Assembly: GCF_037031225.1 (NCBI RefSeq)
Contig: NZ_JAYEZN010000001.1
Location: forward strand, 1,116,001 to 1,180,000
Source of the DNA: Halorientalis sp. LT38
GTDB lineage: Archaea; Halobacteriota; Halobacteria; Halobacteriales; Haloarculaceae
Reading direction: 5' to 3'
DNA: 64,000 nucleotides
Numbering within the stretch: position 1 is the stretch's first letter; every line of letters starts with the position of its first letter. Below are positions 2,467 to 21,340 of this stretch, piece by piece. The notes below the pieces were generated by a model. That model worked only from the letters and a program-made list of their open reading frames with translations, was not told the DNA's origin and made no database searches. The translations under genes were made by a program, and so were the position numbers.

Positions 2467-2991
2467 ATGGATATGACCGCCATTCCCACTGATCCCGGTG
2501 TATACTGTATGTTTGATCTGGATGACACCCCCACTTATGCTGGGCAAACCAGTAATCTCCGAAGCCGGCTACGTCAACATTTCGTTCGTCAAGACTCCAG
2601 CGTTTCAAGCTACGGGCGACTTGATCCTTGGGACATCGCTTCGGTAGAATGGTGGACCACCGATCAAACCGACAAAGCAGAGCGAGACTTGCTAAACACA
2701 TTCCAACCCTATCTGAACTTCCCAGCGGAGAGTGGTTCTCAGCCAATAAGTGGAGAATTCGATTTTGAGGAGCCTGACGGTAAATTCGCGCTCTTCTCCG
2801 ACGAGGAACAGGATTTTCGTCGGCAACCGTACAACCGTGTCAAGCAGAAAATCGAACACATCAACCGCATGGTGGACAAAATCAAGTATGCGAACCACAG
2901 CGACGATACACGACAAACGCTCTACGAGCACAAACGCATCCTGGAAGAGAACCTCCAAGACTTCCTCGGGGTCGACGACATCCCAGAGTGA
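2467..2991 (+). CDS. GIY-YIG nuclease domain protein
   Basis: The N-terminal 85 residues carry the GIY-YIG pattern: GVY at 11-13, YAG at 24-26, then the conserved Arg-rich helix (SNLRSRLRQHF) and an acidic residue in TDKAERDLLNTFQPYLN. Catalysis in this family is metal-dependent hydrolysis of one DNA strand. The C-terminal half (about 100-174) is charged and helical and may be a coiled coil. The gene has its own promoter and is convergent with the GHKL/DpdA operon, with 12 bases between the stops. It marks the left end of the island. A second GIY-YIG-like protein marks the right side (31746-33107). Role in restriction is inferred. Confidence 0.75.
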   Translation: MDMTAIPTDPGVYCMFDLDDTPTYAGQTSNLRSRLRQHFVRQDSSVSSYGRLDPWDIASVEWWTTDQTDKAERDLLNTFQPYLNFPAESGSQPISGEFDFEEPDGKFALFSDEEQDFRRQPYNRVKQKIEHINRMVDKIKYANHSDDTRQTLYEHKRILEENLQDFLGVDDIPE

Positions 2992-3003: not shown

Positions 3004-4536
3004 TTAGGAGACCTTATCCTTTAACTCGAGGACCGGGATTGTTTTCGGATCGGTATCGCCGTACTGGATATTGTTGTTCTGGAAATCGAAGCGGATGGAT
3101 TCGCCCATATATGACGAGCGCTCAATTCGGGTCAGAGCGTCAAGATCACCGAGCTTCCAGCAGACGAATTGGTCGATGTTGGTAAGCGGTGTCTCCTCTT
3201 CAAAGAAGTCGCTAAGTTTCACCTGCAATGACGCATTGTCGAACCCATCGTCGGTAGCGAGAATCGCATTGACCTCGTTGTCCATCTGGAAGTCCGCAAT
3301 CTGTATGTTTTCAGGTGCACCGTTGGCGCTGTACCGTTCTAATGCGGCTATGACCTCAGCTGAGTTTGACGGCGAGAGCCCCTCCTGCTTTTGGGTGCGT
3401 TCCAAGCGTTCTTGCAGAGAGCTTTCCTGAGACTGGATACTTCGTTTCTTGTCCTCAAGTTTTCGGCGTTCGATATAATTCTGATACCATGAGTCCTGAC
3501 ATACCTTGGTCATGTACCGATCCAGTTCGTCCGTGATAGCTTGGTATGCATCACCGGATTTGTTCCGGATTTTCTCTCGGTTAGCCGAAAGTTCCAAGCC
3601 CTGACAGTTGGCGATGAAAAAGAAGTGGAAAAACTCGTTGTCCGCACCTATGGCGTCGTTGTACCGTTCAACCTTGATGTGGTCTTTCGCCAGCCAAATA
3701 CCAAATTGGGCAGAGTGTTTGCCATAAGTCGGCAACTTGTTTCGTGCTTCCTTTCCACCAACCATTCCAACAACTTCAACGGTCAGTTCACGGCCGTCAT
3801 CAAGAGTCACGGTCAGCTCTCGGGGTGGATAGTGCTTGCACATTTCCTCGGCAACTAACTCGCCATCTGGATCCAGGTTTTCAGCAGGGAATTTTAGCCG
3901 GTTATCGGTATCGATTAGACCTCGGGTATCGTCAATCGTGGATGAGAGCTCAACGCTGATATCCATCTCGTGGAAGTCGTCGTTGAAGTGCCAGGCCGTC
4001 GAGCCGCCGATTGTCTTCCACTTGATGTAATGCTCAATCTTATTGTAGGTGAGTTGCTTCGGATCGAAACCCTGGCCAGCTCGGAATCCATGCACCTCAA
4101 TCCGGGTGCCTGACGGCTCGTCAACATCCGCCGTCTCAATTGAATAGGTGGGGAGCTCGCGGTTGTTGAGTTTCGCCCAGGGTTGGTCCATCACCGAGTC
4201 GGTCCGTGTCCCGTCCTTGACTGTCTCAACCCGGATCTTATCGCTCTTGTAGTAGATTTTTGTGCCGTGTCCCTTGTATCCAATCGCGTCGTCCTTATTC
4301 GAGTTTCCGAGATCAAAGAACGACGACAGATCGCTTTCATCCATCCCCTGGCCGTCGTCCTCGATGATTAATGTGTTCCGGCCCTCCTCGTCCTGCTCGA
4401 TATTGATATCGACCTGCGTCGTGTTCGCATCGTAGGAATTCGATAGTGCTTCTCTGATAACTTCCAACGGATCCTCGAAATCACTTGCAATCTCGATGAA
4501 CTCGTTGACCTCATTGACTTGTGGTGTCTTATGCAT
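3004..4536 (-). CDS. GHKL (MORC/Hsp90-like) ATPase
   Basis: The N-terminal Bergerat fold is clear: the N box EALSNSYDAN (29-38, Asn at 33) for magnesium, EDDGQGM (59-65) for adenine contact and the glycine-rich lid GYKGHGTK (86-93). The layout up to about residue 330 (ATPase plus transducer-like domain ending near SANREKIRNKSG) resembles MORC and Hsp90-type ATPases. A helical, coiled-coil-prone section (about 345-400) and an unrecognised C-terminal domain follow. Its ATG overlaps the end of the upstream dpdA paralogue by 8 bases, so the two are co-translated. MORC-like ATPases act as DNA-clamping or remodelling switches. A role in targeting or controlling the DNA modification enzymes is inference. 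Confidence 0.8.
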   Translation of the reverse strand: MHKTPQVNEVNEFIEIASDFEDPLEVIREALSNSYDANTTQVDINIEQDEEGRNTLIIEDDGQGMDESDLSSFFDLGNSNKDDAIGYKGHGTKIYYKSDKIRVETVKDGTRTDSVMDQPWAKLNNRELPTYSIETADVDEPSGTRIEVHGFRAGQGFDPKQLTYNKIEHYIKWKTIGGSTAWHFNDDFHEMDISVELSSTIDDTRGLIDTDNRLKFPAENLDPDGELVAEEMCKHYPPRELTVTLDDGRELTVEVVGMVGGKEARNKLPTYGKHSAQFGIWLAKDHIKVERYNDAIGADNEFFHFFFIANCQGLELSANREKIRNKSGDAYQAITDELDRYMTKVCQDSWYQNYIERRKLEDKKRSIQSQESSLQERLERTQKQEGLSPSNSAEVIAALERYSANGAPENIQIADFQMDNEVNAILATDDGFDNASLQVKLSDFFEEETPLTNIDQFVCWKLGDLDALTRIERSSYMGESIRFDFQNNNIQYGDTDPKTIPVLELKDKVS

Positions 4537-5791
4537 AGGTTGTATCTGTCTCCTCGAAGTATGGATTCATCCGTTCATTGATTAGCTGATAGACAAACTT
4601 TCGGAAGCCTTTCTGGTCCTTCACGGCCTCCTCAAGATACTCAGCTACCTGTTCCTGATCACTCTCGGCGATTAATTGACGGTACTGACGGAGCTCCCGT
4701 TGCTGGATCGCCAAATTATGTGCTGCGACTGAGCCGAGGATATCCTTCTGGTACAGGTCGTCCATCTCATTCCGCATCCGTGCCCGGTGAAAATCGTCGT
4801 TACAGATACGACAATCACAGGCGTCGAAGTCCGCCTCGTCGACTGGGACGGTCTCGAACAGGTTGACACTGTACTTCCCGTTGATCGCTTGGTGTAGGTA
4901 GGAGGCGGAGTCGAAGGAGTCAGCTCCAACGGCGACGAGCAATGGCATCGCCTTCCCTGAAATACCGAACACGTGCAGTGGAAGGTCGTCGTAGCCGCGT
5001 TGTTGCATCTCCCGCTTGCAGTCTGAGACGGCTTCGACCAGCACCTCAACATTGTCCTTCCGCGGAACAAGACTGCCCAAAGCTATCCCGTCGAACGCTT
5101 CAGGGATAGGTACTGCAAGTTCGTCTTCGACAAGGTCAAAAGACCGTTCGAGCATCGCCTCGTAGTAGCCGTGGACCGTCAAATAGCAGGCACCGTCAAC
5201 CTCATCGCGGCGTTCCGCGAACCGGGCAGCGTTAGCGGCGGTCTGCTCCATCTTTTCGATCCGTTCCTCGAACTCGTCATCAGGATGGATCGGATGGTCC
5301 AGATTAACCAAAATGTCGGGACCCAAGTCCAGCTGCATATCCAAGGCTTTGTCCTGGTCGATGTCCTTCTCGAAATCCTCACCCTCGAGGCCGCCGCCAT
5401 GCTTCAGGATTTTGTAGCCACCGGAGTCTGCGAAGATCATTCCGTCATAGTCGCTGAAGCAGTCCCACTCACGGACCTCGTTGTCGAGATACCAGTCCAG
5501 TTTCTTCTCACGAATCCCGTAGTCGGTCAGAGAGGCGATGGAGGTCATCACGCCGTGGAACAGGTCACTATAATCCTTCCCGGCTGTGACTTCTTTGTCG
5601 TGGGCAAGGAATTCCTTGACTGTACGATGGACGCCGCCACCGAATAGAGCGCCCTCGTTGCCACCGCCGTAGAAGTTGATGACAGGGAAAAGATGGGGGG
5701 TTTCTAAGGTACGGTCGTTGATCTGGAGCTGACCACGTCGTGCCTCACCCGCCTCTGCTACGATATCAAACGACACCATACTTTCAGTCAC
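4529..5791 (-). CDS. dpdA: DpdA-like transglycosylase, second paralogue
   Basis: Full-length TGT-fold protein of 420 residues. It has the substrate-base motif FADSGGYK (Asp 122), the GIALGSLVP loop (236-243) and GADSFDSASY, whose Asp 294 sits where the TGT nucleophile lies. It also has a zinc site formed by Cys 325, 327 and 330 with His 358. It departs from tRNA TGTs (GISGK replaces the usual GVG segment) in the way DpdA proteins do. DpdA exchanges guanine in DNA for a 7-deazaguanine base. It lies in an operon with 8-base overlaps on both sides (with the DUF6884-like gene and the GHKL ATPase gene). It has no ArcS domain, unlike its larger paralogue. It may act alone or as a subunit of a heteromeric enzyme. 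Confidence 0.8.
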   Translation of the reverse strand: MTESMVSFDIVAEAGEARRGQLQINDRTLETPHLFPVINFYGGGNEGALFGGGVHRTVKEFLAHDKEVTAGKDYSDLFHGVMTSIASLTDYGIREKKLDWYLDNEVREWDCFSDYDGMIFADSGGYKILKHGGGLEGEDFEKDIDQDKALDMQLDLGPDILVNLDHPIHPDDEFEERIEKMEQTAANAARFAERRDEVDGACYLTVHGYYEAMLERSFDLVEDELAVPIPEAFDGIALGSLVPRKDNVEVLVEAVSDCKREMQQRGYDDLPLHVFGISGKAMPLLVAVGADSFDSASYLHQAINGKYSVNLFETVPVDEADFDACDCRICNDDFHRARMRNEMDDLYQKDILGSVAAHNLAIQQRELRQYRQLIAESDQEQVAEYLEEAVKDQKGFRKFVYQLINERMNPYFEETDTTYA

Positions 5792-6245
5792 CGTGCGCCG
5801 GTACGGATCGGCTGCTTGAAACTAGATGCTTCAGTCGCTTACCTTTCATACCAATGCCACTTCCCTCGATATAGTGGACTGGAACATCGACAGCAGCTTC
5901 AAGTCCATCAACAGCCGGCAGATAATCATTTCCAAGATTGATCCATACTTTATCATACTCATTCTCCTTGACTTTCTTTGAAAGATCACTGACCAGCTCG
6001 TCGTTCAGTTCGTTAGCACGATTTGTGTCCATCTTACGATCATAATATTCTATTTTATCATCTGGTTCAACGATGCCATGCTCAGCAGATATAATTATGA
6101 TGTCAAGTCCAGGCTGAAATCGGTCCGCGCGCAGCGCCTTCTTTATGATTCTGAAGAAGTAGCCATCATACAAATCAAGAGCAGGCACCGGTGTGTCCAC
6201 CGGTTCCTTAGTCGCGGAACACGACTGGACGAGTAGTGACGCCAT
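5784..6245 (-). CDS. DUF6884-like small protein of the dpd operon
   Basis: This 153-residue protein has the hallmark sequence blocks of DUF6884: LLVQSCSATK at the start (4-13), ALDLYDGYFF (23-32), then IIISAEHGIVEPDD and YYDRKM. The CSxxK block and the GIV/P block recall the PCSxxKPY and GLYGPVP blocks of ArcS-type DUF5591 domains, one of which ends the neighbouring DpdA fusion protein. The two may share a fold and act on the same base. It starts 76 bases after the DpdA-ArcS gene and overlaps the next dpdA by 8 bases. A nucleotide- or base-tailoring role is an inference from context; the family has no firmly established reaction that I know. Confidence 0.65.
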   Translation of the reverse strand: MASLLVQSCSATKEPVDTPVPALDLYDGYFFRIIKKALRADRFQPGLDIIIISAEHGIVEPDDKIEYYDRKMDTNRANELNDELVSDLSKKVKENEYDKVWINLGNDYLPAVDGLEAAVDVPVHYIEGSGIGMKGKRLKHLVSSSRSVPAHGD

Positions 6246-6321: not shown

Positions 6322-8235
6322 TTACAGCGAACTGGTAAATCGCTCCACCAGTTCGTCGATGTTCTCGCCACGGAAGTGCTCGGTAAGCTGGAGAGCTCGC
6401 GGATCAGATGGGTATATCTCACCCCGGCCATACTGAGTGAACGCCTCGTCGATAGCATGGCGATATGCTTTGCTCGTCGTGTAGGCCAGGATGTGGTCGA
6501 ACTGCTCACCGAATTGGTCCAAGTACTGGACGAGGCGATTCGTAACGAATTCGATTTGGTCCTCATCCGCAGTGGTGAGGACATACTCGTAGCTCATCAC
6601 AGGGTCCGCCTCCTCGAACTGCTCTGGCACAGGACCATACAGCCCTGAGACGGATATCTTGTGGAACTGGTCCCGGTACTCCTCAAGCGGAGAGAGCACT
6701 ACCTGCTGCGTCCTAGAATCGGAGTAGGGTTTCTCCTGGCTACAGGGCAGAATCAGCAGGACATCTGCCTCGCTTGGCGGCTGGTAGGCGTTCTGCTGGA
6801 GGATGTTGAAATCGTTGGGACCATGCTTCAACGAGATGGTCCGTTTCTCCCGTGTCGTGTCCTCAACCCCTTCGAGGAAGCCAGAGAGTTTGGTCTGGAA
6901 CGTTTCGGCGTCCGGTCCCGCAACAAGTTCCTCGTAGCCGATGTCGGCCAACTGTTCGCGGAGCTCCGGGTTGTGAAGCTGCGCTCGCTTCAACCCTTTC
7001 TCGACGATGTTCTTTCCCTGAGCGAACTTCGCCACGAGTTCAAGCAGTTCGCCGTCATCGATGGCATCCCGTACCTCCTGCATCTGGCGGCTGTACAACT
7101 CGAAGTTATGGTGAGCTATCTGTGCGTAGTACTCGCTCTTGTAGTGCTTGCCGTGCTCTCCCTCGATACGTTTGTAGCTGACATCGGACTCCAACAGGGC
7201 GTGCCGCATATCGTCGAAGTGGATATCTTGGCACGCCTGACAATCACAGTACTCCTCGTCCCAGTCGCTCAACTTGGTCCGCTGCCACGTCTCTGGATGG
7301 ATGAAACTCTTGTTGCGAGCCGCTTTCAGGTAGTTCGAGGAGTCGAATGTATCGACGCCGAGAAGAGAGAGTAGTGGACAGAGCCGGCCACTGATACCGA
7401 AAACGTGGAGCGCGATGTCATCGTACCGTTCCTCCGGTATCGCGTCCCTTGCACCTTGGACGATGTCGACGAGGACATCCGGCGAGTTGCTGAGCGGGAC
7501 AAGTGATCCAAGCGCAAAGCCCTCGAACGCTTCATCGAGTTCCTCAGCCCGGTCCAGAAATCGGCTCACGTACCAATTGACGTCCTCGTAGCTATGGCCG
7601 TGAATCGCCACGTAGACGGACGGTGTCTTCTCGACACCCCATTCCTCAAGCTTCTCATCGTCATTGAGCAGCTGTAGACATTGGACTGCGTTGTCGATAC
7701 TCCGCTCCATTCGCTCGGTGGCCTCATCCCGGTTCAGGTTCTGCGGAATCGGGAAGTCCAACGTGGCGACGATGTCCGCACCGTAATCCAGCTGTAGCTT
7801 CAGGATGCTCTCTGGATTCGTGTAGATACCCCAGTCGTTCTCACTCCCACCCTCTTCCGGCGGCTGTCCGAACGTCGTTGAGTTCATCAGCTTGAACCCG
7901 CCGGAATCGACAAACAATGGCTGCGTGAACCCCGGCTCAACGTCACTCTCCTCGAAGTGCTGTTTCAGCGGCTTCTCCCGCCACGCCGCCAGGTTGTCCG
8001 GGGTGAGGTTGTAGTCGAGAAACGTCATCGTCTGGAACATGATACCCTGGACGGTGTCACTCTGAAAGAGATGGCGACGCGTGTACCGCCAAATACCGCC
8101 TGATTTTGGTGTTGTTCCTCCGATAAGGTTCGCAACAGGGAGAAGTGCAGGTGTCTGAATCTGGCCGGCAGGCGTCTCTATCTCGCCTCGCCGACCGTAC
8201 CTGGCTTTTGCGAGAGTCCTGAATGCAGCCATCAA
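6322..8235 (-). CDS. dpdA: DpdA transglycosylase fused to an ArcS-like (DUF5591) domain
   Basis: Residues 1-430 are a TGT-fold DpdA module: VDSGGFK (Asp 110), ALGSLVP (241-247), GVDTFDSSNY (Asp 298 as nucleophile candidate) and zinc ligands Cys 330, 332, 335 with His 375/376. After a linker, residues 490-637 form a domain like the core of archaeosine synthase ArcS. Pro 497, Cys 498, Lys 502, Pro 503, Tyr 504 and Ser 507 fit the ArcS motif PCx3KPYx2Sx2H, but the final His is Gln 510. ArcS adds lysine to the preQ0 nitrile in tRNA. Fusion to a DNA transglycosylase suggests that inserted preQ0 is converted in place in DNA. It leads the leftward operon. A second Met follows directly and either could be the start. 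Confidence 0.85.
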   Translation of the reverse strand: MMAAFRTLAKARYGRRGEIETPAGQIQTPALLPVANLIGGTTPKSGGIWRYTRRHLFQSDTVQGIMFQTMTFLDYNLTPDNLAAWREKPLKQHFEESDVEPGFTQPLFVDSGGFKLMNSTTFGQPPEEGGSENDWGIYTNPESILKLQLDYGADIVATLDFPIPQNLNRDEATERMERSIDNAVQCLQLLNDDEKLEEWGVEKTPSVYVAIHGHSYEDVNWYVSRFLDRAEELDEAFEGFALGSLVPLSNSPDVLVDIVQGARDAIPEERYDDIALHVFGISGRLCPLLSLLGVDTFDSSNYLKAARNKSFIHPETWQRTKLSDWDEEYCDCQACQDIHFDDMRHALLESDVSYKRIEGEHGKHYKSEYYAQIAHHNFELYSRQMQEVRDAIDDGELLELVAKFAQGKNIVEKGLKRAQLHNPELREQLADIGYEELVAGPDAETFQTKLSGFLEGVEDTTREKRTISLKHGPNDFNILQQNAYQPPSEADVLLILPCSQEKPYSDSRTQQVVLSPLEEYRDQFHKISVSGLYGPVPEQFEEADPVMSYEYVLTTADEDQIEFVTNRLVQYLDQFGEQFDHILAYTTSKAYRHAIDEAFTQYGRGEIYPSDPRALQLTEHFRGENIDELVERFTSSL

Positions 8236-8376: not shown

Positions 8377-8844
8377 ATGCCTCAACGCACACTAGGCGAA
8401 CCAGCTATCTCCTCACAGGATCTTACAGAGGCTGAACGAACCCTCCATATCGGACGTGATCGGCCAATACGGATCAGCGCAGGCCACCGTATTCTGCACC
8501 ACGACGGCAAGTGTAGCCGTCCCCACGGCCATAACTACGCAATCAGTGTCGGGGTGACCGGCACCCTGACCGAGGAAGGATGGGTCGTCGACAAAGGGAG
8601 TATTACTGACGTATTATCTGACTGGGACCATAGGTTCCTAGTTGAACAGGGCGACCCGTTGATCGAGGCATTCGAGGCCAGCGGCGACGGCGACGCCGTC
8701 GTCGTCCTTGACCAGCCACCAACCGCCGAAGTCATGGGACTCGTCCTCGAACGACGATTGGAGGATGCGTTACCGGACACGGTCAGTGACGTCGCAGTCG
8801 AGATCCGAGAGACCGGTGAACTAGCTGCTGGAGGCTCGTTGTAG
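8377..8844 (+). CDS. queD: 6-carboxytetrahydropterin synthase QueD
   Basis: QueD makes 6-carboxy-tetrahydropterin from dihydroneopterin triphosphate, the first dedicated step to preQ0. The family signature is intact: zinc ligands His 37 in SAGHR and His 50/52 in PHGHNY, catalytic Cys 46 in GKCSRPHGHNY, the Asp 84/His 85 pair in DWDHRFL, and Glu 118 in PTAEVM that binds the pterin. At 155 residues it is normal length with a short N-terminal extension. It begins the rightward queD-queE-queC operon, whose genes are 4 and 8 bases apart. The genes supply preQ0 to the DpdA proteins encoded divergently. GTP cyclohydrolase is not here and must come from the host. Confidence 0.93.
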   Translation: MPQRTLGEPAISSQDLTEAERTLHIGRDRPIRISAGHRILHHDGKCSRPHGHNYAISVGVTGTLTEEGWVVDKGSITDVLSDWDHRFLVEQGDPLIEAFEASGDGDAVVVLDQPPTAEVMGLVLERRLEDALPDTVSDVAVEIRETGELAAGGSL

Positions 8845-8848
8845 ACCG

Positions 8849-9630
8849 ATGCCGGCGAGCTCGGACGCCCCAACGGTCGATGACGAGGCAGCTAATCCAG
8901 ATGCCCAAGAGGGGCTACCGGTAAACGAGTTGTTCTACTCACTACAGGGCGAGGGCAAACTAGCCGGGATGCCAAGCGTGTTCATCCGGACCAGCGGGTG
9001 TAACCTCCGGTGTTGGTTCTGTGACTCGTACCATACTAGCTGGGAACCGACCCATGCCTGGCTCGACATCGACGCTATCATCGACCGCGTCACCGACTAC
9101 GACGAAGCTGAGCACATCGTCGTGACCGGTGGCGAACCGTTGCTCCACGATGAGACAGCCGAGTTACTGGACCGACTCAGTGCTGCCGGCTTCCACACGA
9201 CCGTCGAGACGAACGGCACGATCTACCGCGACACCGCGATCGACCTTGCAAGTATCAGTCCGAAGCTGGCGAACAGTACCCCAACCGCAGGGAAGGATCC
9301 GCAAGGCGACGGAGAATGGGCTGACCGACATGAGAACGCCGGATCGACATCGACGTGCTGACCCAGCTCGTGGAGACCTACGAGTTCCAGCTGAAGTTCG
9401 TTGTCACCGGCCGCGACGATATACAGGAGATCAACCAGTTGGTCGGCCGACTGCGGGACGCTGCTGCGACGGCGATCCGGGATTCGGACGTGTTGTTGAT
9501 GCCGGAAGGAGCGACGCGGGAGCGGTTGGCGGAGAGGCGTGAACTGACTGCTGAGGTGGCGATGGAGCACGGATATCAGTATACGCCGCGGCTTCACGTC
9601 GACCTCTGGAATGACGCACCAGAGACCTAA
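8849..9630 (+). pseudogene. queE: 7-carboxy-7-deazaguanine synthase QueE, frameshifted
   Basis: QueE is the radical SAM enzyme that contracts carboxy-tetrahydropterin to 7-carboxy-7-deazaguanine. The first reading frame (8849-9361) holds FYSLQGEG, the cluster-binding CNLRCWFC (Cys 51, 55, 58), VVTGGEPLL and SPKLANSTP, then ends prematurely in TGA. The family's remaining sequence (RIDIDVL, YEFQLKFVV, LLMPEGAT, GYQYTPRLHVDLWND) continues in another frame to 9630. One extra base near 9338-9341, where a C could have been lost from a CCGG run, rejoins the frames. Everything else is conserved, so this is either a recent mutation or a sequencing error. If real, preQ0 supply depends on the host QueE of the archaeosine pathway. 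Confidence 0.88.
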
Positions 9631-9638
9631 CCACGACG

Positions 9639-10349
9639 ATGACTGACCATACAGACGACGAAGGCAGTGCTGTTGTGCTTGTATCGGGCGGTATGGATAG
9701 TGCGACGGCAGCGTTCGAGGCGAAACAGAGAGGTTACGACCTGTACTTCCTCCACACTACCTATGGCCAAGAGACAGCGGACAAAGAGTCGGAGTGCGCC
9801 CAGCAGTTGGCCGGCTGCATGGATGTAACGGACTTCCTCCACATCGAAACCGATCACCTTGCCCGGATTGGTGCCTCCAGTCTCACCGACGATAGTATTG
9901 ACGTCAAGGAAGTGAATCTCGACAGCGACGAGGTCCCGTCCAGCTACGTTCCGTTTCGGAATGCGAACCTGCTGTCGATGGCGACGTCGTACGCTGAGGC
10001 CAACGACTGCGAGGCGATTTTCATCGGTGCGCACAGTGAGGACTATTCCGGCTACCCGGACTGCAGACCGGAGTTCTTCGACGCATTCCACCAGGTCATC
10101 GAAGTTGGGACGAAACCGGCGACCTCGATTGAGTTGGTCGCGCCGTTCGTCGACTGGAACAAGACCGAGATTGCGGAGCGTGGCCTCGACTTGGATGTGC
10201 CGTACGAGTTGACATGGAGCTGTTACCGGGAGGAAGCTCCGGCTTGCGGTACCTGTGACGCCTGTGCCTACCGGCTCAAAGCGTTTCAGGAAGCCGGTGT
10301 CGAGGATCCGATTGAGTACGCGGAGCGACCAACCTATTGCGAGTCGTAG
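9639..10349 (+). CDS. queC: 7-cyano-7-deazaguanine (preQ0) synthase QueC
   Basis: QueC converts 7-carboxy-7-deazaguanine to preQ0 with ATP and ammonia. The PP-loop motif SGGMDS is at residues 16-21. VPFRNANLLSMA and FIGAHSEDYSGYPDCR are typical substrate-pocket blocks. The C-terminal zinc site is complete (CYREEAPACGTCDAC). The 236-residue length is normal. It is the last gene of the queDEC operon, starting 8 bases after the queE stop. It carries no amidotransferase (Gat) fusion of the kind linked to archaeosine in some phages, so the base delivered to DpdA should be preQ0 itself. It is convergent with the coiled-coil gene at 10416. Confidence 0.94.
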   Translation: MTDHTDDEGSAVVLVSGGMDSATAAFEAKQRGYDLYFLHTTYGQETADKESECAQQLAGCMDVTDFLHIETDHLARIGASSLTDDSIDVKEVNLDSDEVPSSYVPFRNANLLSMATSYAEANDCEAIFIGAHSEDYSGYPDCRPEFFDAFHQVIEVGTKPATSIELVAPFVDWNKTEIAERGLDLDVPYELTWSCYREEAPACGTCDACAYRLKAFQEAGVEDPIEYAERPTYCES

Positions 10350-10415: not shown

Positions 10416-11108
10416 CTATCCCAGTCGGATTTCAAGGTAGTCGGCAAGACTTGACCCGGTCAGTGCCTCGCGTTCTTCCTCGGAAAGGTCATTGAAGTAC
10501 AGCGGATCGTCTGATAGGAGCTGGTCCATAACATCTTCGAGAGTGGTACCGCTGTAGCTTCCGAGCAAGTCTTCCTGGACCTGTTGCAGCGCGTTCGACA
10601 TCGTGTCTGCAACGTCGCGGGCCTCCTGTTGATTCGCCTCGAACGAATCCTCGGCTTCGTCAGTGTAAACCTGGGCTTTCCAGTCCCAGTCGTCGAGCAA
10701 CGACTCAAGTGCTTTGAGTTTTCCAATGTCGGCCGCCTCAACGTGCTCATTCAATTTCCGCATCGCCCTGACCCGGTCCCGTTCCTCAGTCCGTTCCTCT
10801 TGAATCGCATTTTCGATCTGGCGGGCCTCCTGACTGACCTGGTCCTCGACGTCGTCGATGACGTCGTCCAAGGCGTCAAAATCCCGGTCGTCGGCGTACC
10901 CTTTCGCCTCGCGGACCTTCTCCTTGGCCTCGTGAGAGACCTCGACCGCTAAACCGAGGAAGTCCCTGGCGATGATCGCCTGGAGCATGGTCTCCTCCAT
11001 CTCGGTCGCTACCTCCTCTAACCGGTCCTCCAAGTCCTGGCGGAGATACTGTTGGTGGACCGTTTCCAGCTCCTGCTCGAACAGGGACTGGTCACTCGTC
11101 TCCGACAT
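10416..11108 (-). CDS. Coiled-coil protein, last gene of the dpdGH operon
   Basis: The 230-residue protein is almost entirely charged helix (many Glu, Asp, Arg and Gln), with probable coiled coil from about residue 10 to 120 and a short C-terminal domain ending in SSLADYLEIRLG. No catalytic motif is visible. Its start overlaps the end of the dpdH-like gene by 17 bases, so it is very likely made together with it and may be an adaptor for the ATPase. It may correspond to one of the small bacterial Dpd proteins such as DpdI, but I cannot show that from sequence. Confidence 0.65.
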   Translation of the reverse strand: MSETSDQSLFEQELETVHQQYLRQDLEDRLEEVATEMEETMLQAIIARDFLGLAVEVSHEAKEKVREAKGYADDRDFDALDDVIDDVEDQVSQEARQIENAIQEERTEERDRVRAMRKLNEHVEAADIGKLKALESLLDDWDWKAQVYTDEAEDSFEANQQEARDVADTMSNALQQVQEDLLGSYSGTTLEDVMDQLLSDDPLYFNDLSEEEREALTGSSLADYLEIRLG

Positions 11109-14100
11109 AGTACTGACTCACCTCCTGGAAATACGGGGCAAAGGATGACGACGACTCTCCTGTCTCGAAGTCGATGTCGTTGAACGCCTCGATGACTTCG
11201 TGCTCCATCAGTTTGTACTCGATCAGCATCTTGTGGATCGCGTCCTGCGTCGACGTTCCCAACGTGTCGAGACACAGCTGACTGGCAGCGACCACCTCGT
11301 CCACCTCGGCCTGGCTGTACGAATCGAACTGTAGCAGCGACTCGTACAACGAGCGGTCTACCTCGTAGTTATCCAAGACGTCGACCTTGTCATGGATCCG
11401 CGCCATGTCGGTCCCTGCTAGTTCATCCTGCGCTGTTCGGGCCGTCGAGTATTCCTGCATCTGGTCTTCCTGCTGATCCAGTGACTTCTGCATCCGATAC
11501 GCCTTGGTCACCATGTCGACCAGTTTCGTGTCGGTATCGAATCGGACACGTGAGCTCAACTCGTCTGGGTCAGCACGGAGACGGCTCAACACGTCCTGCG
11601 GGTCGTGATAGGAGAACCACCGACGGAGACGAGGCAGGTCCAATGTGGAATCATTGACGGCGAGACGCTCTGCGACAAGTGCGTCGAACGCCTCCGCATA
11701 CTCCATGAACTCCTCGATGTACTCCTGTGCTTCAGGAGCCAGTTCATCGGTTAGCGCCGTCTCTAACGTGGTGTCCAATGCGTAGTCCTCACCCTCGGCG
11801 AACCGCTCGTTCAAGGTTGCTGCCGTTACCTCTTGCCACGGATCGTCCAGTACGACGATCCAGGCATATGCTGCGAGGACGAAGTCGTCGAACCCGTACG
11901 GTGGATCGTACTTGTAGTAGACCGAGGTATCCTCGATATACTGCTCCCTGACCTTGGCCCGCCACTGCCGGGCATACTCCGTTAACTGGCCACCGACCAA
12001 CGTGAGGATCCGTTGCTCGTCGGCACTCGCATCCGCCTCGTCACTCCGGATCCCGTATTTCAGCAGTTCACGGACATCAGACCGCTGGAAATCCTGCGGA
12101 TCAAGCACGATTTGGTCCGGGCTAGGCGAGGACTCCGCAGAGGGATACACAAACGGATCATCCGACCGGCTGAGGTTGTACCGGAGGTCGCAGTCCGTCC
12201 ACAGCGAGTAATCCTGCGTCAACGTATTGATAAGGTCAGTGAACGCCGTCCGCAGGTAGGCGTCCGTCTCGACATACGATTCGTCCTGCGGGTTAGTGTA
12301 CCAGTTGTCCACGTACCCTCTCTGCTCGTTGATGATCCGCTCAACACGGCTCAAACCTCCACCATCACCGCTTTCACCATCTTCATCGCCTCCCTCGCTT
12401 TCCTCCTCGTCTCCACCTGTCTCATCCTCGCTTTCGTCGTCCTCGTCGGTTTCACCCGGCTCTGTCTCTTCATCCTCGGGCGGAATATACTCGACACCGG
12501 GAATCTTAACATGGTCATCCAGCAGTTCGATGTTTGCCGGGAGGTCGTCCGCTGCCGGGTTCTCGGGGAGTAGCCCGAATGCTTCGAGGAAGGCCCGGTT
12601 AACGGCGATATACTCGTCGTATCGGTCGGTATCGCCGTACCATTTGGCGACGTGGGCGAAGACTTCGGCTTCCCGGTAGACGTCGTCATGGGCTGCCACC
12701 CGGTTGGTCACGTGATTCAACGGGCTTGCCGTGGCGGGACACGTTGACGTTCCGTTGAAGTATTCGAGCACGGTCTCGAAGACGACGATGATCAGTTCAC
12801 GGGGAGACTGCTCGCTCTCATCAAGCCCGGTGTAGATCCGTTCGATAAACTGCTGGTTGAAGGGGAACAGGTCGCGGAAGCTGTCGTCACACAGTCCACA
12901 CGTCGCGCAAAGTGAGCCCGGCTCTGGGTTCAGCAAGGTGAAGCCGCCGTCGTCTCTGTCGTAGCGGACGCTGCCATCGTGGTGCTTGATGTAGCCGAGG
13001 TACGGCCGGATGAAGTCAACTGCCGTCTCGTCGTCAAGGAAGAGGACCTGGTTGGAGTTCTGTTTGTTCGTTCGGTAGAACCGGAACCGGTCCTCCGCTG
13101 TCCGTTTGTGGAGAACCGCCGTTGAATCGCGGGTGCCAGCAACGATGAAATCCCAGTTATCACCGGGGTTGTCGCGTTCCATGAATTTGCGGAGCTGTCG
13201 CGCCTGCATCCCGGTGATCGAGAAGTCCTCGAAGACAGCGACCGGCCGTTTGTCACCGTATTCCTCTTTGAACTTCTCACCAACTTCCTCCAGTAGATCA
13301 GTCAACGGCGGGGTATCGTACTGGTCGAGTAGTGCCTGCCAGAACCCGCTGCTCAGTTTCTCCGCTGGATGCCCCTCAAAGGCATCAGCGTCTTCATCAA
13401 AGACCTGTAGGAAGCTATTCTGTTCGTATTCCTGCTCAGTCACCAAGTTCGGTTCTTCGCCGTACTGCCGTGGCTCAACCAACCGGTCGCGGATCCGTTC
13501 CGCCACGAACTCGACGATGGCATCCTCTTGCTCCGGTGTCGTCGAGGTCTCATAGCCGTCCCACCCAATCTCCAACAACGCGGTGTAGACGGCCTGGCTA
13601 GCGACCATCCGCGGCCGCTGTTTGATGTCGTCTTCAAGCCGCTTGAACTGTGACGAGGTCTCCAACGTCTCGTCAAAGTGGTCCTGGTAGAATTCAGGGA
13701 TGTCCTCCGTCAGCATCGACATCAAGTCCGTGTCTTTGTCGACGCGGAGGATCGGCCGGTCAGCGTCGTTCTCTAACCGGTGAGTGAGCGCCACGCAGAG
13801 TTCCGATTTCCCGGTTCCGACCTCGCCCTCAATGACGACGGCGAAGTTCTTGTTGCGGCTTCCGGAGAAATCCTGGTAGACATCGTTCTCGGTAACGACT
13901 CGTTCCTCATCGGTTTCCAGCGATGGGCCGTCGACACCGCCTTCGGTCTGGAAGAGTTCGATCGGGCGGTGCGTGAACCAAAACAGGTCTGGATTCTCGG
14001 CGCGAACGGCAGCAACCCGGCTGAACAGGCTGCGCAGGTCGGATTCGTCCTTTTCGTGGAAGTGTGGGCAGAACAGATCGTCGGGAGGGGAAGATGCAGT

Positions 14101-14112
14101 TTCGCTACTCAT
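11092..14112 (-). CDS. dpdH: DpdH-like large P-loop ATPase
   Basis: Walker A is GEVGTGKS at 96-103. A Walker B-like strand reads PVAVFEDFSI (about 310-320) and is followed by a VAGTRDS sensor-like segment. A cysteine cluster CATCGLC lies near 405-411. An acidic low-complexity linker (Glu/Asp/Gly, about 555-605) separates this STAND-like ATPase half from a helical C-terminal half without recognised domains. Size, position next to a DpdG-like wHTH protein (4-base ATGA overlap) and the Dpd context fit DpdH, which in bacteria belongs to the restriction side of the system. Mechanism is unknown; ATP-driven recognition of unmodified DNA is a guess. Confidence 0.7.
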   Translation of the reverse strand: MSSETASSPPDDLFCPHFHEKDESDLRSLFSRVAAVRAENPDLFWFTHRPIELFQTEGGVDGPSLETDEERVVTENDVYQDFSGSRNKNFAVVIEGEVGTGKSELCVALTHRLENDADRPILRVDKDTDLMSMLTEDIPEFYQDHFDETLETSSQFKRLEDDIKQRPRMVASQAVYTALLEIGWDGYETSTTPEQEDAIVEFVAERIRDRLVEPRQYGEEPNLVTEQEYEQNSFLQVFDEDADAFEGHPAEKLSSGFWQALLDQYDTPPLTDLLEEVGEKFKEEYGDKRPVAVFEDFSITGMQARQLRKFMERDNPGDNWDFIVAGTRDSTAVLHKRTAEDRFRFYRTNKQNSNQVLFLDDETAVDFIRPYLGYIKHHDGSVRYDRDDGGFTLLNPEPGSLCATCGLCDDSFRDLFPFNQQFIERIYTGLDESEQSPRELIIVVFETVLEYFNGTSTCPATASPLNHVTNRVAAHDDVYREAEVFAHVAKWYGDTDRYDEYIAVNRAFLEAFGLLPENPAADDLPANIELLDDHVKIPGVEYIPPEDEETEPGETDEDDESEDETGGDEEESEGGDEDGESGDGGGLSRVERIINEQRGYVDNWYTNPQDESYVETDAYLRTAFTDLINTLTQDYSLWTDCDLRYNLSRSDDPFVYPSAESSPSPDQIVLDPQDFQRSDVRELLKYGIRSDEADASADEQRILTLVGGQLTEYARQWRAKVREQYIEDTSVYYKYDPPYGFDDFVLAAYAWIVVLDDPWQEVTAATLNERFAEGEDYALDTTLETALTDELAPEAQEYIEEFMEYAEAFDALVAERLAVNDSTLDLPRLRRWFSYHDPQDVLSRLRADPDELSSRVRFDTDTKLVDMVTKAYRMQKSLDQQEDQMQEYSTARTAQDELAGTDMARIHDKVDVLDNYEVDRSLYESLLQFDSYSQAEVDEVVAASQLCLDTLGTSTQDAIHKMLIEYKLMEHEVIEAFNDIDFETGESSSSFAPYFQEVSQYYVGDE

Positions 14113-14978
14113 GACATGATAACGATGGAGTTCGCTGATTGTTCGCGGCGGTCGTGCGTCGGCATCCGGTCGAAGGCGACAGCACCTTGATCACCGATCT
14201 CTGCCAGGCGGATCCGTTCCTCGTTCATCAGTTGATAGAGGGAACGGCTGAGGAGAGCGGGCACACCGCCAGTGTCGTCTGGAAGGTAGAGCAGGTTGTT
14301 CGACACCCAGTCCAGATACGTCGGCACCTCAATGACAGGGTTACCGTCGACCGTTCGGCCAGCGGCGTCATGTGCCCGTTTGATCGAGTGGTAGATAAGT
14401 GACGGGTCGGGGTAGACAGTGAACTCGTGTGTCTCATACTGGTGGAGCAGGCCAAGGTAGGTGGCGAGACGGCCCCAGTTTTCCATCTTGTTCGGGTTCA
14501 GGTCGATCCTGTCACCACGGTACGTCGGGTAGTACTCCAGGGTATCGCGTTCCCAGCGGTCCATCTGCTTCCTGACTGCTTCGTCGTTGTCGTTGATCCG
14601 CTGGTAGTCTTCTTTGATGAGGTACGCGTAGTTCAAGTGGAAGACGGCTTGCTTCCCCCAGTCAGGCGGTGTGAGAGATGACGCGAGATGTTCTAACGAG
14701 GTTAACCGGAAGTCCAGTGTCTCGTCGCCTGTCGACCACGTGTAGTCATGGACGGTGTACTCTTCGTCTTTGGAATCAAGCAGCCCTAACCGCTGTAACC
14801 CCTTTGCCCCTTCATCGACGGCAGCAACACTCAGCCCGGTATCATCGACAATTTCGTCGTCAGTCGTATTGCCGCGGTTGACTGATTCGTAGACCGGTTT
14901 GAGTGACCTGGGATTCTGGATGGTGTTGAGAAGATATCCCTGGTCAGGATCTGGCATTATGGACTCCGTTGTAGCCAC
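14109..14978 (-). CDS. dpdG: DpdG-like winged-helix protein
   Basis: The 289-residue protein starts with a winged-helix region (about 15-75: TTDDEIVDDTGLSVAAVDEG then LQRLGLLD). A mainly helical body follows with a PTYRGDRIDLNP block. In bacterial islands a protein of similar size lies directly beside DpdH and is named DpdG. Here the stop and start overlap in ATGA with the dpdH-like gene, and the gene's own start lies inside the end of the 298-residue gene (22-base overlap). DNA binding is inferred from the winged helix. The assignment rests on architecture and context, not on a catalytic motif. Confidence 0.65.
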   Translation of the reverse strand: MATTESIMPDPDQGYLLNTIQNPRSLKPVYESVNRGNTTDDEIVDDTGLSVAAVDEGAKGLQRLGLLDSKDEEYTVHDYTWSTGDETLDFRLTSLEHLASSLTPPDWGKQAVFHLNYAYLIKEDYQRINDNDEAVRKQMDRWERDTLEYYPTYRGDRIDLNPNKMENWGRLATYLGLLHQYETHEFTVYPDPSLIYHSIKRAHDAAGRTVDGNPVIEVPTYLDWVSNNLLYLPDDTGGVPALLSRSLYQLMNEERIRLAEIGDQGAVAFDRMPTHDRREQSANSIVIMS

Positions 14979-15853
14979 GCTTTGTAAGTTTGCCCTATAG
15001 GAGTTGAATCAAGGTTACGTGCTTCGCGCCGCGCATCGCTCATCGACGCATCTTGGGCGACAGCAGCTTGATCGAACGCACGGGTGTTCTCCGCGACCGT
15101 CGAATTCAGAGAACGAACCACCGACATAGCCGTAGAGGAGTCCCATTCGATACGGCGGCGCAGCCACGAGGCCAGGTTCTGCAACGCATCATCCTTCTTG
15201 GGACTGGTGCCAGGCCCGTCGTCACTTTGGAACGCTGCTGCAATCGCGTCGTACAGTGGGAGGTACGGTGCATCGTTTAACAGCGAGAAGAGTTCGGTCG
15301 TCTGCGTCACGGTCTCACCGGATACACGTTCATACAGGATGGCGTTGTCTTGGAGGAACACGTTCCGTGTGTCGGTAAGCGGGAAATCGAAGCCCTGATC
15401 GTTGTACCACTGGTTCACGGCATCATACACATCGTCGTAGGGGCGTTGTGCGATGGCGAAGGGTTCGTGGTAGAGCGGACGCAGCCCTAGCTGGGTTTGG
15501 AACTGTTTCTCGTCCGCAACGACAACCATCATCCCTCTCCCCTGCCACCGGTTGATCAAGCTGCCGATCGAATGCTGCGTCTCATCCTCGTAGTACTGCG
15601 TCGTCAAGGCAGCCAACACTTGGTCCTCATACTCGATGTTTTGGAGCAAGCTGTACTCATAAGAGAACAAGCCCCGTCCATCGCCGCTCTGAAGCTGCCG
15701 CCACCGCCAGGGATACGTGAACTCCTCAACGCCGAGGCGATCTAGCGCGGGGAGACAGCGGAGCAGGCCGAACTGTGACCGTTGCTCGGTCGTGTCGTGG
15801 ATGAGGAACACGCCCTGCTGGGAGAGGAACGATTGGAGTGTCTCCCACTTCAT
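14957..15853 (-). CDS. Unassigned 298-residue protein of the restriction operon
   Basis: I do not recognise the family. The protein begins with a fold-like segment GVFLIHDTTEQRSQFGLLRCLPAL, and later has GRGMMVVVADEKQF (beta strand) and a C-terminal Ala/Arg-rich helix. It sits between the DUF1998 helicase (37-base gap) and dpdG (22-base overlap), so it is co-expressed with them. A partner of the helicase is the simplest reading. The small size and absence of cysteine clusters or nuclease motifs argue against an independent enzyme. Confidence 0.6.
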   Translation of the reverse strand: MKWETLQSFLSQQGVFLIHDTTEQRSQFGLLRCLPALDRLGVEEFTYPWRWRQLQSGDGRGLFSYEYSLLQNIEYEDQVLAALTTQYYEDETQHSIGSLINRWQGRGMMVVVADEKQFQTQLGLRPLYHEPFAIAQRPYDDVYDAVNQWYNDQGFDFPLTDTRNVFLQDNAILYERVSGETVTQTTELFSLLNDAPYLPLYDAIAAAFQSDDGPGTSPKKDDALQNLASWLRRRIEWDSSTAMSVVRSLNSTVAENTRAFDQAAVAQDASMSDARREARNLDSTPIGQTYKAWLQRSP

Positions 15854-15890: not shown

Positions 15891-18800
15891 TCATGGTGTT
15901 TGTTTTAATGCCTCCGCGAGCAGCGTCCTGTTCAGCAAGTCGTTGTCGAGATAGGTAGCCGGTGTCCGCTCGATCAAGAGGCAGTTCTCACAGTAACCGC
16001 TACACTCGTCACAGTCAACCACGTTTCGAACCTCGTCGACGACAGCGTCCAAGTTCCGGTCAACCTGTGTCGCGATCCCGTTGCCACCCTGCCGGTTATC
16101 GACGATGTAGACACGGACTTCGTCACCGGTCGTCATCACCTTCACGCGGAAATCATCTTGGTCACTCTGAGTTTCGACGGCGACCGCTTTCGTCAACGCT
16201 TGTTCCAAGCTGATGAACAGTTGGGGCCACACCGCCTCGTCTTCCTGCTCCAACAATTCATCCGGAAGACGATCAGCCACCGTTGCCTGGTCAAATGTGA
16301 GACAGATTCCCTGTGTCGCGTACTGTTTCCCAACAGGCGCGTACCGAGCATCGCCGTCGTCGCTGTCAGAGATCCGTGCTTCAGACCGTTTGATCTCTTT
16401 CCCGGACCCCATCGTATGCCGACGTTCGAACACCGGGATGAAGTCGATCACATCGTAGCCGCCGACCGCGACGTCGCAGGGAAGCCCGAATACCGTGGCT
16501 TCTTCGCCTGCCGTCGTTTCGTCACGGCTCGTAACGTGGGTCGTCATGATGGGCGAGGTACTGTACTGATCTTCGAACTGGCGGGCTTTCCGGCAGTTGA
16601 CTGCCTGGACGCCGTGGACCGAGATCGCGTCTAACGGGCTGCCGCAGTGGGGACACTGCTCTGCTGCTGTCCGGTAGCTTTCGAACGGCCGGGTACAGTC
16701 CTCATTGGTACAGATCGCCACCGTCTGTAACGATTCCTGCGTGCCTTCGACGTCCGACACCAGGTAGGTTGAGCCGTACAGGGTCATCACTGCCCCTCGC
16801 TCATTTTCCTCACCGGGGTAGAAGTCGTAGAGGCGGCCGTCACCTTGGAACGAGATGCTTTCACTGCTACCCTCGAACTGGACGGGGAACTGTTGGCCGA
16901 ACTCGCGGTAGTTCGCTAAGTAGCCAAGCCGATTAAGCCAGAAATCCAGGCGGTCATTCCCGTCACGCACGTCGTCGAGGTCGGTGCTGTCACTGAAGCT
17001 GCGGAGCTGGCCACAAGTTTGCTGTGTCCGTTGCCGGAAGCTCACCGGGCCGTCACTGGTAAAGACCGCGTCGAAGATTTCCAAGCCGCGCTGCCCGAAC
17101 ACGGCCTCGATATGGTCCCGCAACCGGTCCGTCACGTCGTCACGGACGAAGGTGCGTAGCTCGTCAAGATTCGCTTCCACTCGGTCGGCGAACTCAGCAA
17201 CCGAGTCAACCGACTGATCAATCTGGTAGGTCTCCTCGAAGGTGTCGCTGGGATGCGGATTACGGGCGAGATAGGCAACGACTTCGGTCACGACGTGGCC
17301 GGCCAGGACTTCGTCGAAGTCAAACGGGTCCGGGACACGGACAGGGTCGAAGCTGCCGAAGAACCGGTCCAGGTCGTCGTAGTAGTGTGCGTCGACAGGA
17401 TGTGTGCCGCGGACCGTAGTGGCTACCAAGGATTCGCTGCCGCGTGTCCGTCCGGTGCGGCCACTGCGTTGCACGTAGTTGGTCAAGGTTGGCGGTATCC
17501 CGACCTGTGCCACTGAATCCAGGGTGCCGATGTCCACGCCGAGTTCCATCGTCGGGGTCGCGCTGACGATGTTGACGTCCGGATCAGATTTCCGGAACCC
17601 TTCCTCGATGGCGCTCCGCAGTGTCGGTGGAACGTCCCCTTTGTGGATTCCGACCGTGATGAAGTCCAACTCCATCGTCTCGACCTTGTCGCGCGATACT
17701 GGCGGCCCTTCACTCGGGATGAGGGGTGCAAGGATGTCGTGGCCCCAGTGGTCAACCGGGTAATCCCAGTCTGTCTCGACGTCTGCCCAGCCGAGGAGGG
17801 TCATTGAGTCGTCTTCCTCGACACGGAACCGTTGGTGGACGTCGACCGTGTTGCCGCAGGTCGGGCAGTGAGCAAGGCCGTCACCGTCACGGGGGACAGG
17901 TGATGCCGTGTAACAGTCGTCGCAGAACGTTACCTGGGGAACCAGTTGGAGGTCGGTCTTACTCGCGTAGTCGTGGACGATGAAGATGCCGCCGCCGACA
18001 TCACTATAGCCGTCACATGCTTCCAGACCGTCGATCTGGTCTTCGATGTACTCGAAGACGTCGTCCTCAGTTGCTTCATCTTTCCCCGCGTTGAGAATCG
18101 TGTTGCGGACGTCATCCCACGTTTTGAGTTCTAGGACGTCGCTGTCCAGCAAGCCCTGCAACACGTCATCGACAACTTCGTCGATTTCCTGTTCGGTGAA
18201 CCTTGTCTCGGACTCGAGCTTGTTGACCAACCGTTCCCGGGTGTACCCCTGGAACTTGATTCCGTGTTTCTGGAACTGGGGCGGGAACCGGCTGACGAAG
18301 AGATTGAACACCTCGTGGCCGATTGCCGCGGTCTTCGGATCGGGACAGGTGTAGACCCAGGCAGGGGTGACAAGCGCTGCTTCACGGAGGTGCTGGCACT
18401 GGGAGAGCCGTGCGTTCGGCTCAATCTCGTTCCACAGCTCAACGAGGATATCGTTCGCATCCGTTTCCCGGTCCGGAGTGTTCTGTCGCAGCGGCTGCCA
18501 GTACTTCTCCCGCAGCGTATCCAACACCGGGTAAAATAGCGACCGGGCCTCGGCTCGGCCACCTTCCTCGATCAACTGCTTCACGTACAGCGTCTCAGCG
18601 GTCAACCCGTACTCCGTCCCGATGATCTCGTTGCTGACCGATTCAGCTGTCGACCGTGAATCAGAGAAGACCAACGTCTTCTCGGACGGCATCGACCGGC
18701 ACAGCGACGTCAACATGAACGAAAGCAGGGTCGGCGTCGGCACCGTAATATCAGTCAAACGGAGCCGCGACGTCGTACAGCCAGGACACGGACCGTCCGT

Positions 18801-20887: not shown

Positions 20888-21340
20888 TTAGTCTCCTGGG
20901 TTGATGGCTTCTTCAACACTAAATAACGATTCGATACAATCTCGCAAGCTGTCATCATAAGAACACCGGTTCGCCTCGCCGTCGGTCACTTCACGATGTT
21001 GTGTCTTGCCTTCCTCAAAGTACACTTCAAGATTCGAGATACACGTATACTCCGAGATGGACTCAACCACCAACACAACCATGTTGTTACGGTACTTGTC
21101 CATGAGGCGATGATCAAGCTGTTCTGCCTCGATGCAGACGCCGAAATCGATGTCTGGATATCTCTCTGGGAGGCGGTGATAGTAGTCGTCACTACCCGGG
21201 GTGTCAGTCGGACGGTTCACCGTAACACGTTCTACATTTGGAATCGCTAATGCGAGGATTTCGAGGTCATCTTGGGCGAGTTGTGTCGTGAGATATCGCC
21301 GTACACCTCGCGGAAACGAGTCGCAACTGAGCGTTACCAT
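20888..21340 (-). CDS. Unassigned 150-residue protein coupled to a DpdJ-like helicase
   Basis: No family is recognised. The protein has alternating strands and helices (ILALAIPNVERVTVNRP, NMVVLVVESISEYTCISNLEVYF) and no membrane segment. Its ATG lies inside the end of the upstream helicase gene (7-base overlap), so it is translationally coupled. A 257-base gap with a promoter separates it from the next operon. In the plus-strand copy of this helicase the equivalent downstream position is taken by the PLD-fold DpdK-like gene. The two small proteins show no similarity that I can see. Confidence 0.6.
   Translation of the reverse strand: MVTLSCDSFPRGVRRYLTTQLAQDDLEILALAIPNVERVTVNRPTDTPGSDDYYHRLPERYPDIDFGVCIEAEQLDHRLMDKYRNNMVVLVVESISEYTCISNLEVYFEEGKTQHREVTDGEANRCSYDDSLRDCIESLFSVEEAINPGD

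Follow-up and report, generated by a model that had tools for sequence, protein, structure and literature searches.

A GHKL ATPase as the predicted writer-side partner of a candidate DNA transglycosylase in haloarchaeal islands

The DNA analysed here (the window) is a stretch of 64,000 nucleotides from Halorientalis sp. LT38 (contig NZ_JAYEZN010000001.1, positions 1,116,001 to 1,180,000; source genome 3.58 Mb in two contigs). It carries an island in which the gene for a GHKL ATPase directly follows that for a transglycosylase of the TGT family. Judged from recurrence, module exchange and sequence, the GHKL protein is well supported as a strict writer-side partner of this archaeal transglycosylase, belonging with the genes that would mark DNA rather than with those that would attack unmarked DNA. 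With moderate confidence, we propose that it is an obligate partner that works as an ATP-driven clamp of the MORC/MutL kind and aids base exchange on the target nucleic acid. By sequence comparison, the constant core of the island consists of the DUF6884, transglycosylase and GHKL genes, plus TGT2 with its ArcS-like domain:

3004–4536, minus strand: GHKL (MORC/MutL-type) ATPase, 510 amino acids (HATPase_c_3, 6.7e-15)
4529–5791, minus strand: TGT-family transglycosylase, 420 amino acids (Pfam TGT, 1.2e-28), named dpdA in the initial annotation
5784–6245, minus strand: DUF6884 protein, DpdC-like (PADLOC DpdC, 3.9e-5)
6322–8235, minus strand: TGT2, a second TGT-family protein with a TGT and a DUF5591/ArcS-like domain

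Transcription on the minus strand runs from TGT2 through DUF6884 and the transglycosylase to GHKL, with queD, queE and queC divergent. Overlaps of 8 bases occur at both the DUF6884/transglycosylase and the transglycosylase/GHKL junctions; the initial annotation had described the latter, at which the start of the GHKL gene overlies the stop of the transglycosylase gene. A gene for a GIY-YIG protein (2467–2991, plus strand) adjoins the GHKL gene, and such a gene recurs by the islands of L073, L076, L081, L090 and G094.

Among 391 Halobacteria genomes (the class sample; full-strength matches at E ≤ 4.4e-161 for GHKL and E ≤ 2.1e-111 for the transglycosylase), strong GHKL and strong transglycosylase matches were each found in 42, the genomes being identical and the genes always adjacent; in all 42 pairs, the matched segments share contig and strand and lie −10 to +28 nucleotides apart. 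Both strong matches (E < 1e-170 and E < 1e-100, respectively) likewise fell in the same 10 genomes of a family set of 146; in all 10 carriers, the three genes share a strand and follow each other as DUF6884, transglycosylase and GHKL, with the GHKL start 1 to 8 bases within the transglycosylase gene. A scan of genome contigs yielded 21 full-length GHKL relatives, all haloarchaeal and all directly following a transglycosylase and a DUF6884 gene, while one more match was a remnant. Two haloarchaeal plasmids provide two further cases of the pair. Carriers include Halorubrum lipolyticum (L075) and Haloplanus ruber (L084). The coupling that the initial annotation had suggested from a single locus is thus found in every carrier of the three surveys, and recurrence in 42 of 42 class-sample genomes with either gene at full strength excludes a chance pairing. 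The counts overlap (7 of the 42 class-sample carriers also belong to the family set, and L082, L083 and L092 of the 21 scanned loci are probably the same genomes as G094, G096 and G141) and the carriers are related by descent and transfer; therefore, we claim no probability from them.

Partial cases were also recorded. In the class sample, G180 has GHKL fragments only, with no transglycosylase at E ≤ 1e-30, and G336 has a 644-amino-acid frame of TGT2 length and no GHKL. TGT2 only was found in G136 (77% complete), GHKL remnants in G008 and L093, and a match covering just the first 91 transglycosylase residues in plasmids of Natrinema thermotolerans. Another 8 family genomes have weaker GHKL matches (E 5e-9 to 6e-6) that span the ATPase domain only; these were not counted. 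On a plasmid of Haladaptatus sp. YSMS36 (L100, 22509–27208), two different TGT2 genes accompany a DUF6884-TGT-GHKL operon, giving three TGT-family genes within ~14 kb.

Two opposite cassette swaps separate the writer genes from the restriction cassette, represented here by its DpdH-like ATPase. In G003, identity to the window is 85% for GHKL, 92% for the transglycosylase, 80% for DUF6884 and 81% for TGT2, versus 45% for DpdH; in G094, the corresponding values are 55, 48, 44 and 49%, versus 83% for DpdH, whose three smaller cassette neighbours are 75–81% identical to those of the window. GHKL travels with the writer genes in both. The correlation of pairwise distances points the same way. Of 28 distinct loci, 23 were compared: L076, L078 and L080 nearly duplicate L075/L077, and L085 and L086 have no TGT2 inside their 10 kb flanks. 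The correlation reached 0.961 for GHKL and transglycosylase, versus 0.766–0.836 for the other five pairs, and 0.928 versus 0.575–0.759 without the window clade. At an equal length of 150 columns, the values were 0.871 (interval 0.803–0.923) and 0.674–0.749, respectively. DUF6884, despite an equally close operon linkage, correlates at only 0.766; linkage alone therefore fails to explain the GHKL-transglycosylase correlation, although the short length of DUF6884 accounts for part of the difference. If GHKL forms a complex, these distances would predict the 420-amino-acid enzyme as its partner rather than TGT2.

The GHKL protein was predicted to consist of a GHKL and S5-like transducer region (residues ~1–345), a coiled coil (346–388) and a C-terminal alpha/beta domain (389–510), with a mean predicted local distance difference test score (pLDDT) of 76 and a predicted template-modelling score (pTM) of 0.61. 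Residues E29, N33, D60, G62, G64, G86, G89, G91, T92 and K93 are invariant in 28 of 28 orthologues; we take them to belong to the ATP-binding motifs known as the N, G1 and G2 boxes. Residues 2–362 of the model superpose on MORC3 with Z 18.7 and a root mean square deviation of 3.7 over 297 aligned residues, SMCHD1, Bacillus subtilis MutL and GyrB being tied with MORC3 within Z 1; over residues 2 to ~375, MORC3, SMCHD1, MutL, GyrB, topoisomerase VI B and Hsp90 score Z 16.8–18.7. The model thus indicates a machine of the GHKL plus transducer type, in which MORC and MutL types are not separable because the fold matches are tied.

Modelled in isolation (pLDDT 89.8), the C-terminal domain has as its fold neighbours EcoT38I (Z 4.0), MspJI (3.3), VRR_NUC (3.3) and Hjc (3.2), all weak, and at least four of the five best are of restriction-endonuclease type (Z 3.2–4.0); Foldseek returned no match at E ≤ 0.001. 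There is no conserved (D/E)xK in residues 386–510, no column among the 28 sequences reaching 70% Lys. Position 421 is acidic (D or E) in 28 of 28 and could be a remnant of that motif. Given the weak fold matches and the lack of a conserved lysine, the domain would be an inactive nuclease fold at best and may serve in DNA binding; on the same grounds an active PD-(D/E)xK nuclease was rejected. These neighbours, a match to a BbrUII-type restriction model (1.1e-9) and the finding that MORC/paraMORC genes mostly lie in restriction-modification operons (PMC2292703; here and below, statements on cited papers refer to those portions of the text that were available) would nevertheless be expected of a restriction-side, MORC/paraMORC-like protein merely located in a modification operon. 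We consider such a role improbable and have mostly rejected it: the GHKL gene swaps with the writer genes and not with the restriction cassette, it is kept in the 3 of 10 carrier genomes that are missing a DpdH homologue genome-wide, and its C-terminal domain has no conserved (D/E)xK. A viral origin of the GHKL gene was also sought, and searches of phage records and viral contigs gave no relative. Among bacteria, a single relative was found, on the Caballeronia plasmid pSBC2-5 (L098, 14983–16668; 29.5% identity over 90%), with a ParB-family gene 2.6 kb upstream.

The 420-amino-acid transglycosylase scores 120.8 bits with the arcTGT model (cut-off 350) and 27.2 bits with the NCBIfam DpdA model NF041059, below its cut-off of 200, and the name dpdA is accordingly a loose label; for TGT2, NF041059 is absent among the matches listed. 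Asp122, Asp291, Asp294, C325, C327, C330 and H358 are invariant in 10 of 10 orthologues. From an alignment with arcTGT 1iq8, we take Asp122 and Asp291/294 to be catalytic and the three cysteines and the histidine to bind zinc. The enzyme stops at the end of the TGT domain, whereas arcTGT 1iq8 runs on to 582 residues. In a tree of 31 TGT rows, the window enzymes fall outside the group formed by Picosynechococcus DpdA and the haloarchaeal bigTGT proteins (100/100); the deep split has 90/85 support and the branches are long, so that the model scores are the firmer ground for rejecting orthology. Taken together, the 420-amino-acid enzyme is a candidate DpdA-like DNA transglycosylase and apparently no orthologue of bacterial DpdA; it probably swaps guanine for a modified base and thereby marks the DNA of its own cell.

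In TGT2, an intact TGT domain is fused to one that resembles ArcS (DUF5591, 7.6e-17; ArcS model, 3.1e-31 and 108.6 bits against a whole-protein cut-off of 440). One of its motifs presumably corresponds to that of ArcS; the last residue of this motif, at TGT2 position 510, is Gln in the window and His in the 7 other aligned TGT2 proteins. In a profile comparison with hhalign, DUF6884 matched the same ArcS-like domain marginally (P 1.4e-4, probability 53%). On the basis of these two likenesses, the product in DNA could be preQ0 or the corresponding amide, a lysine adduct, or archaeosine. TGT2 is present in 10 of 10 family carriers but lies ~180 kb off in G046, and is therefore a constant but detachable partner. 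The ArcS-like domain of TGT2, along with the nearness of the 420-amino-acid enzyme to arcTGT (120.8 bits) rather than DpdA (27.2 bits), would also suit a module that modifies RNA, be it tRNA or other, with GHKL as a remodelling factor and no DNA system involved. This we regard as very improbable, since the enzyme is without the C-terminal part of arcTGT and Dpd-type restriction genes lie inside the island; moreover, a canonical arcTGT scores above cut-off separately in 10 of 10 genomes, so that the island TGT enzymes are extra.

The initial annotation had seen no ParB-like DpdB here and proposed GHKL as its functional replacement. With the DpdB model NF041060, we obtained a single 10-bit match (E 0.37) in the source genome and none at E ≤ 10 in nine pair-carrying relatives. 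The DndB family PF14072, to which DpdB is assigned (PMC11888242), was found in 0 of these 10 carrier genomes, whereas the same search passed the cut-off in 2 of 14 control genomes. Across the 391 Halobacteria genomes, searched with NF041060 only, 2 gave a match, below 50 bits in both (cut-off 300), and no DpdB model was among the matches listed for 19 island and flanking proteins (the best 25 for the helicases). A DpdB homologue was thus found neither in the window nor elsewhere in the ten genomes. The expectation behind the proposal fares less well: the transglycosylase is not a bacterial-type DpdA, and DpdB is therefore not necessarily to be expected. What stands of the substitution is the writer-side coupling of GHKL, through the swaps and the distance correlation; by analogy, GHKL may still act as a replacement for DpdB and might, as the initial annotation suggested, open or select the DNA.

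In the mechanism we favour, a GHKL dimer with bound ATP would close on its nucleic acid target, which is most likely host DNA, and the closed clamp would recruit the transglycosylase. GHKL would then help to expose a guanine, flipped out or melted, so that preQ0 or one of its derivatives can take its place. ATP hydrolysis would release the clamp, and the DUF6884 protein and ArcS-like TGT2 would elaborate the inserted base. DNA without the mark would be attacked by the DpdH/DpdJ/DpdK-like cassette. The clamp itself, the formation of a complex and DNA as the target are predicted features of the GHKL module.

Several points weigh against this mechanism. DNA as the substrate is inferred from sequence, and the genome counts are interdependent, the modules being inherited and transferred. 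Of 17 plasmid records with a TGT match, just 2 have a GHKL match too; the remaining 15 include ordinary tRNA enzymes and fragments. Around the GHKL relative on the Caballeronia plasmid, the 15 kb on each side contain no TGT match. The intervals of the equal-length correlations overlap slightly, and without the window clade they overlap clearly, with 0.74 (0.614–0.838) for GHKL and transglycosylase and 0.606 (0.422–0.747) for transglycosylase and TGT2. Finally, the DpdA enzymes of phages work in systems that have no DpdB (PMC6884629, in whose available text the term DpdB occurs 0 times), and base exchange by a TGT fold is therefore not always ATPase-dependent. This ability of TGT folds to work without an ATPase would fit a licensing or quality-control role, in which GHKL, without helping the exchange itself, would govern the place or time of transglycosylase action, limiting it, for instance, to host DNA that is replicating or complete, or to situations in which the mark is lacking. 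For MutL/MORC-type proteins elsewhere, a role as ATP-driven engines that link recognition to the action of a second enzyme has been proposed (PMC2292703), and obligate pairing and an extra C-terminal domain would suit a switch equally well. We recognised no sensor domain in GHKL, however, and the C-terminal fold matches are weak (Z at most 4.0); we hold pure licensing to be rather unlikely and retain the clamp that assists exchange as the preferred reading.

Beyond the core, the island holds a preQ0 synthesis operon and a Dpd-like gene set (DpdH, helicases and DpdK) upstream of the writer genes:

8377–8844, plus strand: queD, preQ0 synthesis (model match)
8849–9630, plus strand: queE, preQ0 synthesis (named by family and conserved neighbourhood)
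9639–10349, plus strand: queC, preQ0 synthesis (named by family, position and conserved neighbourhood)
10416–11108, minus strand: 230-amino-acid protein of unknown function adjoining the DpdH-like gene
11092–14112, minus strand: DpdH-like ATPase of the restriction cassette (NCBIfam DpdH, 6.8e-10)
14109–15853, minus strand: two unknown proteins of 289 and 298 amino acids, in the restriction cassette of the DpdH-like gene
15891–20630, minus strand: YprA-type helicase (PADLOC: nearest DruE, 3.1e-46; lower, DpdJ, 5e-27)
21334–25773, minus strand: DpdJ-like helicase (4.9e-42)
27144–31313, plus strand: DpdJ-like helicase (8.2e-52)
31240–31728, plus strand: DpdK-like phospholipase-D-type protein (NCBIfam DpdK, 2.3e-15)

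The names queE and queC are our own putative assignments. Compared with the intact queE of L091, the window gene shifts frame near 9337 and matches in two segments (8801–9627), one with 88% identity in frame 2 and one with 93% in frame 1. The change is either a broken gene or a sequencing error, though the island would need preQ0 synthesis. Two of the island helicases are DpdJ-like (21334–25773 and 27144–31313) and one is DruE-like; both DpdJ-like proteins match the single DpdJ-like helicase of the relatives, that at 27144–31313 better. The product of 31746–33107 (minus strand) has, by eye, a GIY-YIG and an AlbA-like part and no NCBIfam match.

By gene content, the island appears to match BRIGADE type I (Bell et al. 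2025 preprint, PMC12458937), described from halophilic archaea only, with a predicted 7-deazaguanine cluster, a phospholipase D (PLD) nuclease, and one ARMADA/Druantia-like and one Dpd-like YprA helicase. Shared features are the 7-deazaguanine genes, the DpdK-like PLD protein and the restriction to haloarchaea (21 of 21). By model score alone, the helicase pair would correspond to 15891–20630 (best DruE, 3.1e-46) and 27144–31313 (best DpdJ, 8.2e-52); the window differs in having two DpdJ-like helicases besides the DruE-like one. GHKL, MORC, MutL, HATPase, TGT, transglycosylase and DUF6884 are absent from the main text of PMC12458937, its supplement lying outside the search. With bacterial Dpd (DpdA-DpdK; PMC12839542, PMC11888242), the island shares a TGT enzyme, a DUF6884/DpdC-like protein, preQ0 genes and relatives of DpdH, DpdJ and DpdK, but it is without DpdB, its transglycosylase scores below the DpdA cut-off and lies outside the DpdA branch, and it adds GHKL and the ArcS-fused TGT2. 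Prokaryotic MORC/paraMORC systems (PMC2292703) resemble it in their GHKL and S5 region, the motifs of which are intact, and in their setting, a defence that marks DNA; there, the partner is a methylase or nuclease, whereas here it is a transglycosylase, and the words "transglycosylase" and "TGT" occur 0 times in the available text of that paper. We did not find the link between GHKL and transglycosylase in the literature, supplements being outside the search, and a supplementary figure on BRIGADE may draw it; under Dpd and related terms, the available portions of PMC13321033 and PMC12988326 make no mention of the module.

A conceptual parallel is BREX-related capture (BRC, PMC12839542), in which a TGT protein is likewise accompanied by an ATPase proposed to substitute for DpdB; that ATPase is a STAND NTPase in a PglZ/HerA context, whereas here it is GHKL. 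A second haloarchaeal operon, present in 3 of 3 loci examined, combines a short TGT protein (341–344 amino acids), an unknown protein of ~290 amino acids and a BrxC/BrxD-type ATPase (PF10923, 1.8e-13 to 4.5e-16):

L109, 5018–11076 (Haloferax alexandrinus plasmid pBNX82-4): second operon
L042, 8219–13020: second operon
L043, 5737–11862: second operon

Beside it, L109 and L042 encode a DpdA-type enzyme with a DUF6884 domain, and a 966-amino-acid protein of L043 groups with the L109 counterpart in the TGT tree. A transglycosylase with some ATPase is therefore a recurring theme, to which GHKL is one solution. Another twin-TGT arrangement occurs on a Picosynechococcus plasmid (L107, 1074–7082), where the annotated DpdA carries a DUF6884 domain at its N-terminus and the second TGT is short; the arrangement adjoins parA, and DEAD/DEAH helicases lie between and after the two TGT genes.

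That another ATPase may replace DpdB is already in print for the STAND NTPase of BRC (PMC12839542). Tentatively, and at less than even confidence, we suggest the broader rule that chromosomal DNA transglycosylases need an ATPase partner, a slot filled at least three times by unrelated ATPases: the ParB/DndB-like DpdB in bacteria, and the MORC/MutL-type GHKL protein and the BrxC/BrxD-type P-loop ATPase (L109, L042 and L043) in haloarchaea. If the proposed role of GHKL is correct, a MORC-type ATPase would be part of a machine that writes DNA bases, not of one for silencing or restriction, which would place MORC-type ATPases directly on a prokaryotic DNA-marking reaction. GHKL, the transglycosylase, TGT2 and DUF6884 would then form a small, defined system in which to ask why chromosomal insertion of 7-deazaguanine needs ATP, a question raised by DpdB. 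The module would also supply the missing writer description for BRIGADE islands and, with the pair present in 42 of 391 Halobacteria genomes, would predict that many haloarchaea have a modified, possibly archaeosine-like base in their DNA.

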